Assembly: GCA_003709165.1 (NCBI GenBank)
Contig: RDRZ01000006.1
Span: 1-64,000, forward strand
Length of the DNA: 64,000 nt
From: Flavobacteriaceae bacterium PRS1
GTDB taxonomy: Bacteria > Bacteroidota > Bacteroidia > Flavobacteriales > Flavobacteriaceae
Reading direction: 5' to 3'
Positions 33,923-36,986 of the stretch are shown one piece after another. The position numbers were made by a program, and so were the translations under genes. The notes beneath the pieces were generated by a model. That model saw only the letters and a list, made by a program, of their open reading frames with translations, made no database searches and was not told where the DNA came from. Within the stretch, counting starts at the first letter, position 1. Every line of letters starts with the position of its first letter.

Positions 33923-34582
33923 TTACTCTCTGCTTCCGCTCCAAGTCCCACCTATATTACCGTTTACCCAAGTTCCAGTAAGTGTATTTCCAGTAATTTG
34001 AAAAACTCCTATGGTCCCGTTTTCGCTGGTTGAAGTTCCTGATCCGTCAGCCGCTATTGTAGTACTTATTGTAGCAACTGTTTGATTACCATTATTTGAA
34101 TAAGCTGATCCTGATACAAACTCTCCAGTATCTGAGATCTCAAAAGTCCACGTTCCAGTGTCATCACCATCAAATGTGCCACTCCATGTTCCTGCAAATT
34201 GAGAAATATTTGTGTTAAATGAAGCTACTCCACTTTGTGTACTAGTATTATCGACTGCACAAATGGCTTGTACATAAAAATCATAGGAAGTACCTGGGGT
34301 TAATCCATCAATATTAATTGAATTCTGTGAAACCGAAATAACTGAACCATTTCCTGGTGAAAACTCAGTGAGACCATATTCAACTTTAACGTCTAGATTA
34401 TTATTAAGGTTGTCCCAATTTAAGACAGCACTATATTCTGTAATTTGTGAAATTGATAAACTTATTGGAGTATTGCATACAGCAATTATTGGTTCATCGT
34501 CAATATCGTTACTATCGTCACTACTAGAGCAAGATTGAAAAGTTAGCGTGATTACCGTTAATATTAATAATAGTTTTTTCAT
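33923..34582 (-). CDS. Fibronectin type III-containing lipoprotein
   Basis: A 219-residue surface lipoprotein. A signal peptide ends at FQSCSSSDDSND (lipobox Cys18), followed by an acidic Asp/Ser linker. Residues about 38-128 form a fibronectin type III-like domain with the SAVLNWD and LTPGTSYDFYVQAIC motifs. The last 90 residues are beta-rich with repeated Gly-Thr-Trp segments (AGTWSGTF and GTWSGS), suggesting a small jelly-roll/lipocalin-like domain. It has no obvious partner nearby. Confidence 0.8.
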   Translation of the reverse strand: MKKLLLILTVITLTFQSCSSSDDSNDIDDEPIIAVCNTPISLSISQITEYSAVLNWDNLNNNLDVKVEYGLTEFSPGNGSVISVSQNSINIDGLTPGTSYDFYVQAICAVDNTSTQSGVASFNTNISQFAGTWSGTFDGDDTGTWTFEISDTGEFVSGSAYSNNGNQTVATISTTIAADGSGTSTSENGTIGVFQITGNTLTGTWVNGNIGGTWSGSRE

Positions 34583-34904: not shown

Positions 34905-36617
34905 TTAATCTGTTTTAATAGGTGGCATTAAAGGCAAATAAGGCCTTATTTGGTTTTGGATTAATTCCAATTGTTTCTCACCACGTCTTATCCATTCTTG
35001 AAAACGAGGGTTATTCCTAAGTACATCAAATTGATAGTCGAATTTTGCCATTTCTACCATTCCTCCCCACATTGTCCACCCATTTAATTCTTCAAAATTG
35101 TCCATGCTTTCATATACTTTATCATATTGTCCCAATGAAGCATAAGCTCCTACTAAATCATAATAAATCCATTCGTCTGCACGACCAACACTAATTAATT
35201 GATCAGATACCTCAATTTGTTTTTTCACCATGTCCAATCCTTTTTCAATTTGCCCATCACGTATTAAGGCCTGGTCATATCTATGATAAGTTCTTCTGGA
35301 CAACCAACTATTAATTCCTTCAGCCATTACTTGATCATGCCAATCTCTATAATGTTTTAGTGCTTCTTTGTTTTTTTCGGGTATAAACGAATTAAAAGCT
35401 GCTAACCACGCATTTTTTTGTTGATTATATTCAGGCCAATATTTTTTGATATGATCAATACTTTTTTCGTGTTGCTGTGTCCTAGTATATAACCAAACCT
35501 GAGTATTTAAAAATCCGGATTGGATTTCAGCAATTTTATCTAAATAAAATTGTTCTGTTTTATAGTCATCTAAAAGGGCATAATAAAATCTATAAATTTT
35601 ATAAACTCTTAAGGTGTCATCTTTCGTTTCTACCCTTTTTTCAATCTTTTTAAACGTTTTTAAAGCATTTGTATAATTTTGCTCTGCTGTATACAAACTC
35701 CATAAACTATTTAAAACATAATTATTATTTGGTTCTAAGGTTAATGCATTCTCATAATCCTTTATTGCTTTGTCACTTTTGTTTGTTTCAAAATAATAGC
35801 CTCCTCTAGTTACAAATGCTCTTGAGAGATTAGGATTTATTTGCAATGCCTTATTTGTAAAAGTGAGTACATCTTCTAAATTATTTTCTTCAAGTGCATA
35901 TGGTGCCTTTTCTTCAAATATACTTTGTGCTAGCCCTACATATGCTTGTGCAAATAATGAATCCCGTTCAATAGCTAATTCATAAGATAATTTTGCCTTA
36001 CTTAATAATTCTAGCCAATCTTCTGTCTTTTGAAGTGGCCGGTTCGCCTTAAACCTATATTCTTCTCCTTTTAAATAATGGTCGTACGCCAACGTATTTT
36101 GTGTAGGGGTTGTGTTTAATTCGCTCTTTAAGTAGGAGGAAATAATGGTTTCAAGATTAGTAGTAATAGATTGTATGACATTGGTTTGAACCGCAAAGAT
36201 TTCTGAAACATCCTTATCATAACGTTCAGACCAAAGCACCTTATTATCTTCAACCCTAATGAGTTCAGCAGATATAATTGCACGATCACCAATGCGCTGT
36301 ACATTACCTTCAATTACATAATTAACATCCAATTCTCTAGCAATAGTCTTTAAAGGAAATGAGGTGTTTCTGTATTGTTCAACAGAAAGTCGAGATACCA
36401 CCGAAAATTCAGGGATTTTAGCTAAATGATCACGAATTCCTGCCATGATACCGTTACAAAAATACAAGTTTTCATCATTTGAATTGTTGTTTACAAATGG
36501 TAATACTGCAATTGTTTTTTCAAGATTAGCAACATCAACATTTGTTTTGTCATATGTCTTATTAAATACTATCAATCCTATTAGAATGATAACAGGAATA
36601 ATACCTGCTAATTTTTT
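34905..36617 (-). pseudogene. C-terminal part (TM, TolB-like, TPR) of an AraC-TPR regulator cut off by a stop codon
   Basis: The frame continues directly from the AraC domain upstream (36618-36986) after a single TAA at 36618-36620. It first encodes a membrane helix (AGIIPVIILIGLIVF), then a FlgO/TolB-like domain with TIAVLPFVN and VNYVIEGNVQRIGDRAIISAEL, and then about eight TPR-like repeats. From TTG 36575 it could be translated as a 556-residue protein, but that start removes most of the membrane helix. In flavobacteria I recall these domains as one chain acting as a one-component regulator. The 556 codons remain open, so the stop may be recent or an error. Confidence 0.75.
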
Positions 36618-36986
36618 TTAAAATGTTTTTTTAGGAGGTACAATAGCTTTTTGAAATTTAACTTCTCCTGGAGGGTAACCATAAAAGTTATGAAAGCAGG
36701 TATTAAAATAAGTTGGGCTTGTAAAGCCAACACGGTAAGCTATTTCTGAAGCCGTACCCGAGTTCAGTTTTAGCATTTCCATTGCTTTTTCTAGGCGATA
36801 TTCTCTAATAAACTGACTTGTAGATTTACCATTTATTTCATGAAGTTTGCGGTGTAATTGTGATCTGCTAAGTCCTGCTTCTGAGGCTAGTTCTATAACC
36901 ACAAAGTTTTCATTCTCTAAATTAATTTCAAGAATGTCTATCAATTTTTTAATAAACTCCTGATCCATGGAACGCTTTTCTGTCAT
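36618..36986 (-). pseudogene. AraC-type DNA-binding part of the split AraC-TPR regulator
   Basis: The 122 residues contain the two helix-turn-helix units of the AraC/XylS family: LSRSQLHRKLHEINGKSTSQ and ASEIAYRVGFTSPTYFNTCF, followed by FYGYPPGEV, the usual end of the domain. It stops at TAA 36618 inside a Lys-rich linker that leads into the membrane helix of the next part, in the same frame. As it stands the product would be a free DNA-binding domain without sensor. Confidence 0.8.

Follow-up and report, generated by a model that had tools for sequence, protein, structure and literature searches.

With a probability of about three in four, the AraC-family gene described here is a nonsense allele of recent origin in an otherwise ordinary flavobacterial regulator of the AraC-TM-TolB-TPR type, and no more than a free AraC domain would be left of it. 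A nonsense mutation is supported by the uninterrupted state of the gene in relatives, by the frame that remains open past the stop, and by the lack of any bypass among the shifts and slips considered. The allele is most likely null or near-null, since an AraC domain cut ahead of the membrane helix would lose its anchor, its sensor and, by analogy with CadC, its means of dimerisation.

The locus and its interrupting stop

The window, by which we mean the whole stretch of 64,000 nucleotides that was analysed, is G000:C58:1-64000 of a 103,646-base contig, from a genome of 2.4 Mb in 61 contigs with a completeness of 84.65%. Its relevant features are the following, where residues of the joined reading are numbered with the stop as residue 123:

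36618..36986, minus strand: AraC-type DNA-binding domain, 122 aa, the first part (ORF, HTH_18, 91% identity to a 696-aa homologue)
36618..36620, minus strand: in-frame TAA in the linker (a sense codon one base off in the two nearest homologues)
36561..36617, minus strand: codons 1-19 past the stop, KK and a single hydrophobic stretch, predicted membrane anchor (Kyte-Doolittle, model)
34905..36575, minus strand: downstream ORF with a restart at TTG 36575, 556 aa, most of the helix gone
36147..36521, minus strand: joined-reading residues 156-280, TolB/FlgO-like part (weak FlgO match, homologue identity)
34908..36146, minus strand: joined-reading residues 281-693, TPR repeats reaching the C-terminus (TPR_1, all-helical model)
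33923..34582, minus strand: next gene, which by eye looks lipoprotein-like and which carries a fibronectin type III domain (fn3, E 1.4e-8)

The ORF of the AraC part starts at ATG 36986 on the minus strand and ends after 122 codons at TAA 36620-36618, so that the window gene is not the single uninterrupted ORF of an AraC-TM-TolB-TPR regulator. Past the TAA the same frame is open from 36617 to 34908, a run of 570 codons without a second stop anywhere, and closes at 34907-34905. The first-pass annotation had placed the AraC domain and the membrane/TolB/TPR part in one frame, and reading the ORF from 36986 to 34908 bears this out; its counts of 14 open codons between the TAA and TTG 36575 and of 556 intact codons thereafter also agree with the sequence. 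The linker reads PPKKTF-stop-KKLAGIIPVIILIGLIVFNK, with a hydrophobic stretch right after the stop; it was described there as KKTF-stop with a full membrane helix beyond.

The AraC part matches Pfam HTH_18 with an E value of 1.3e-19 and 70.7 bits (cut-off 33.6), which identifies it as an N-terminal AraC domain. The helix, the TolB-like part and the TPR region all lie downstream in the same frame, and homology to the intact family is strong. The TPR assignment comes from Pfam TPR_1 (E 1.7e-9), and the TolB-like part has a weak match to FlgO that falls under the cut-off (E 6e-4). The hydrophobic stretch has a mean Kyte-Doolittle value of 2.68 across 17 residues starting at residue 3 past the stop; the structure model places a helix at 6-24, with pLDDT below 50 there. 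The model of the sensor part is all-helical and, built from two sequences, of mediocre quality (mean pLDDT 67.6), and the PDB matches listed for it are generic, being solved TPR superhelices and other helical-repeat proteins. The family to which the window gene belongs is that of one-component, membrane-anchored regulators, with a presumably cytoplasmic AraC domain, one predicted helix, and a TolB/FlgO-like and TPR part as the putative sensor. The lysines preceding the helix suggest an orientation in which the sensor part is probably periplasmic.

The downstream lipoprotein-like fn3 gene is a possible target of the regulator. It is a plausible one because the intact regulators of two other loci, L032 and L127, likewise precede genes that look lipoprotein-like by eye.

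The gene in related genomes

The first-pass annotation had proposed an alignment with related AraC-TPR proteins. For this comparison residues 1-290 of the nearest homologue, covering the AraC domain, the helix and the TolB-like part, were searched against 397 Flavobacteriaceae genomes, an even draw out of a larger group, and 277 of these matched at least some of the query. Matches were considered to span the junction when they began at query position 19 or earlier and ended at 270 or later, and were counted by hand among the matches listed. On this count at least 84 matches span the AraC-sensor junction, and the only stop in those listed is the single TAA of the window; the gene is whole in the other 83 of 83. 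Weaker matches bearing stops, in G146, G104 and G174, covered query residues 4-153 at most and lie in frames of 952-1021 codons, and inspection of stop-bearing matches in G355, G279 and G033 found none with a stop in the AraC-sensor linker. One further AraC-TM-TolB match (G380:C1:1291839-1292699) has an open frame of just 335 codons and is perhaps a regulator without the TPR part, or one cut ahead of it.

The nearest homologue, G004:C434, belongs to the same genus, has the same ORFs as JAGLKH010000049.1, and encodes the regulator in one ORF of 696 aa; a scan of the genome collection found a single relative, L032. Between the window and G004:C434, identity amounts to 91.0% across the AraC domain but 54.7% across the sensor part, within which the TolB-like part is 89% identical. 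Where the window has its stop, a sense codon that differs from TAA by one base is present both in G004:C434 and in G272, the homologue next in line. The lesion is therefore a single substitution and not a change in the length of the adjacent A-run, and intact homologues with a sense codon at this position are what is expected for a pseudogene.

This also bears on a possible consensus error in the assembly at the TAA, with the gene whole in the living organism, which we consider unlikely. The frame past the stop is open, the site adjoins a run of eight A, and the genome, 84.65% complete and split into 61 contigs, may well be a metagenome bin. At this site, however, the window differs from the two nearest relatives by a substitution, hence not by the usual homopolymer error, and the site is interior to a contig of 103.6 kb.

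The fetched loci were also compared for the arrangement of the two parts. AraC and sensor occur in one ORF, with AraC first, in 34 distinct homologues, a count that omits sensor homologues with other N-termini or with a C-terminal AraC-like match, and they occur as separate neighbouring ORFs in the window only. A naturally split pair recurring in relatives was seen neither in the fetched loci nor in the other 83 junction-spanning matches listed. Sensor-part relatives with an AraC-like match near the C-terminus, and not the N-terminus, are found at L014, L015, L023, L024 and L096. Another genome of the family encodes a TM-TolB-TPR-like protein of 497 codons with no AraC match in frame (L088:2809-4299).

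For a restart past the stop, the first NTG codon is TTG 36575, 14 codons on and within the hydrophobic stretch, and the first ATG, at 36446, lies within the TolB-like part; the rare start codons ATT, ATC and ATA are present between the TAA and TTG 36575, with ATT at codons 6 and 7. We regard it as highly unlikely that the locus encodes a truly split regulator, with selection keeping both an AraC activator of one free domain and a sensor part translated on its own. Such a regulator would fit the two open frames, the rare start codons just past the stop, and an AraC domain that alone is sized like MarA (match to 1bl0, E 1.3e-7), but translation from the first NTG would leave out the greater part of the helix, the first ATG falls in the TolB-like part, and no split homologue was found in the fetched loci or among the matches listed. 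Among the readings offered by the first-pass annotation, a nonsense mutation or a base error thus fits the uninterrupted relatives, which speak against the truly split regulator; its proviso that homologues might always encode both parts as separate genes is at odds with the 34 that carry both in one ORF.

Same-frame pairs of ORFs separated by one stop are not rare in this genome. In a sample of 428,197 bases, comprising the window and 20 other stretches, there are 24 such pairs with both parts of at least 100 codons; 13 have an ATG within 8 codons past the stop and the 11 others do not. By eye, most of the 24 are neighbouring genes. What sets the window split apart from chance is homology, in that the junction-spanning relatives listed have one gene here. 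Beyond the window pair, three of the pairs were examined further. A GH92 glycosidase gene (L124:3708-6650, G000:C50) has a single in-frame TGA inside its N-terminal domain, with Pfam GH92N matched before the TGA over no more than positions 1-173 of 236 and the catalytic domain after it, and the congener G004:C257, found with the part after the stop only as the query, has GH92 in an uninterrupted 988-codon frame. Within this genome, a single in-frame TGA probably also cuts the gene of a DUF285 repeat protein that carries a Por secretion tail (L109:14195-16417, G000:C22; pair at L109:15361), and possibly, in the same manner, one that includes a PQQ-like part (L120:13091-14974, G000:C20; pair at L120:13481). 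The GH92 case, together with the DUF285 and PQQ-like cases, indicates that the window gene is not the only one here to have such a lesion, whether it is real or a consensus error.

Fate and age of the interrupted frame

Several ways of bypassing the stop were considered. A +1 shift at the stop gives KKN-stop, and a -1 shift adds a tail of 19 residues. Simulated A-run lengths of 0-13 give products of 122-138 aa, none of which restores the downstream frame; the simulation covered shifts and slips. Programmed frameshifting or slippage was therefore rejected, as the stop is not bridged by any single shift, +1 or -1, or by any slip in the A-run; neither a shift or slip reaching the downstream frame nor a conserved site, the marks of programmed recoding, was found. 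We regard it as extremely unlikely that readthrough or slippage at the TTTT-A8 site (TTTTAAAAAAAA) yields some full-length protein. The site looks slippery and is present once in the window, but 1.58 occurrences of the motif are expected there by chance, the products of single shifts and A-run changes are all short, and the stop is missing from the homologues among the matches listed. An altered genetic code with TAA or TGA as sense was also rejected, since TAA closes 190 of 256 stop-to-stop frames of at least 200 codons in the 428-kb sample and prfB is present. The prfB gene itself has an internal TAA just upstream of its main frame, beside an overlapping short frame, which we take to be the well-known prfB frameshift arrangement.

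For the nonsense allele, the following course of events is proposed. A recent single-base change would have created a TAA at the end of the linker, directly ahead of the helix, and translation would stop there, producing at most a soluble AraC domain of 122 aa with neither an anchor nor a sensing part. The lost sensor part would, if it works as in CadC, have served in dimerisation. The sensor part would not be produced in useful amount, and signal-dependent regulation would be lost. It is very unlikely, in our estimation, that the stop has been kept in the population as an adaptive release mutation, by which a single step would convert a membrane-held, signal-dependent regulator to a free activator resembling MarA. 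If that were true, the downstream lipoprotein-like gene would be rewired and the sensor half would be decaying.

The open frame gives some indication of when the stop arose. In an unconstrained sensor frame, 323 of the 5130 possible single-base changes create a stop, and by 0.028 substitutions per site the chance of having gained another stop would reach 95%. Between the window and the nearest homologue, dS is 0.51 in the AraC part and 0.36 in the TolB-like part. As no further stop is present, the stop is much younger than the split between the window and its nearest homologue, unless the sensor is still used. On sequence grounds the break looks young. Counting against a nonsense allele, the long open frame could reflect a sensor part still in use, and ATT at codons 6 and 7 could in principle retain most of the helix.

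Changes found only in the window were compared with those found only in the intact homologue L032. With L063 as outgroup, window-only and L032-only changes number 4 and 2 in the AraC part, 1 and 8 in the linker and helix, 4 and 4 in the TolB-like part, 38 and 9 in the TPR region, and 49 and 23 in the C-terminal part. With L064 as outgroup, the corresponding numbers are 4 and 3, 1 and 0, 4 and 2, 14 and 17, and 35 and 28. This pattern suggests that the TolB-like part evolves no faster in the window than in L032. The window-only TPR excess seen with L063 would fit relaxation or a different history and counts against a nonsense allele, but it is gone with L064; as the excess in the TPR and C-terminal parts varies with the outgroup, it is ambiguous and not clean evidence of decay.

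A different history of the TPR part is also touched on by third-position identity between the window and the nearest homologue, which is 0.77 up to residue 275 and 0.48 beyond it (a drop reached in 0 of 1000 permutations). On codons for the same residue alone, the fall is from 0.80 to 0.65 (18 of 1000 permutations), and the L032-L063 pair has similar breaks in identity near residues 186-190 (2 of 1000 and 14 of 1000). It is possible that the TPR part is mosaic, or that sensor parts have been exchanged between regulators at the TolB-TPR border. Since the drop on same-residue codons is weaker and similar breaks occur in L032-L063, recombination here is a lead only, and this is a weakly supported possibility.

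Relation to known systems

In domain order the window gene is the same as the AraC-TM-TolB-like-TPR regulators of Flavobacteriaceae, which have a continuous ORF, whereas the window copy is cut by the stop in its linker. The intact family is common, with at least 83 other junction-spanning matches in the 397 genomes searched; a limited full-text literature search found no paper about it. Regulators of the CadC/ToxR type likewise unite in one protein a DNA-binding domain, one membrane helix and an additional part. The window sensor part matches the NCBIfam model of CadC over residues 8-249 (E 2.1e-8), but its 33.5 bits are far under the curated cut-off of 400, and the DNA-binding domain of CadC is of the winged-helix type while that of the window gene is AraC-type.

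MarA, SoxS and RamA resemble the truncated product that the window gene would make, in that it too would be an AraC domain of about their length (match to 1bl0, E 1.3e-7), and activators of the MarA type function as single domains. The window domain in contrast arises from a stop in a larger gene, and its AraC part scores 33.8 against the NCBIfam cut-off of 250 for MarA. The best solved match is PDB 12aw (E 9.5e-17), the AraC output domain of a hybrid two-component system protein; in contrast to that system, no histidine kinase or receiver family is among the Pfam matches listed for either part of the window gene. Nonsense-interrupted genes, or pseudogenes, share with it intact relatives, one in-frame stop and a frame that is otherwise open, and we find no notable difference from them. 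AraC-TM-TolB-TPR regulators are many, and the window case is in all likelihood just a nonsense allele of one of them, of an ordinary kind. It has little significance alone, and serves as a reminder that a split seen in a single genome needs checking against relatives; the intact regulators may be a more interesting subject than this broken copy.
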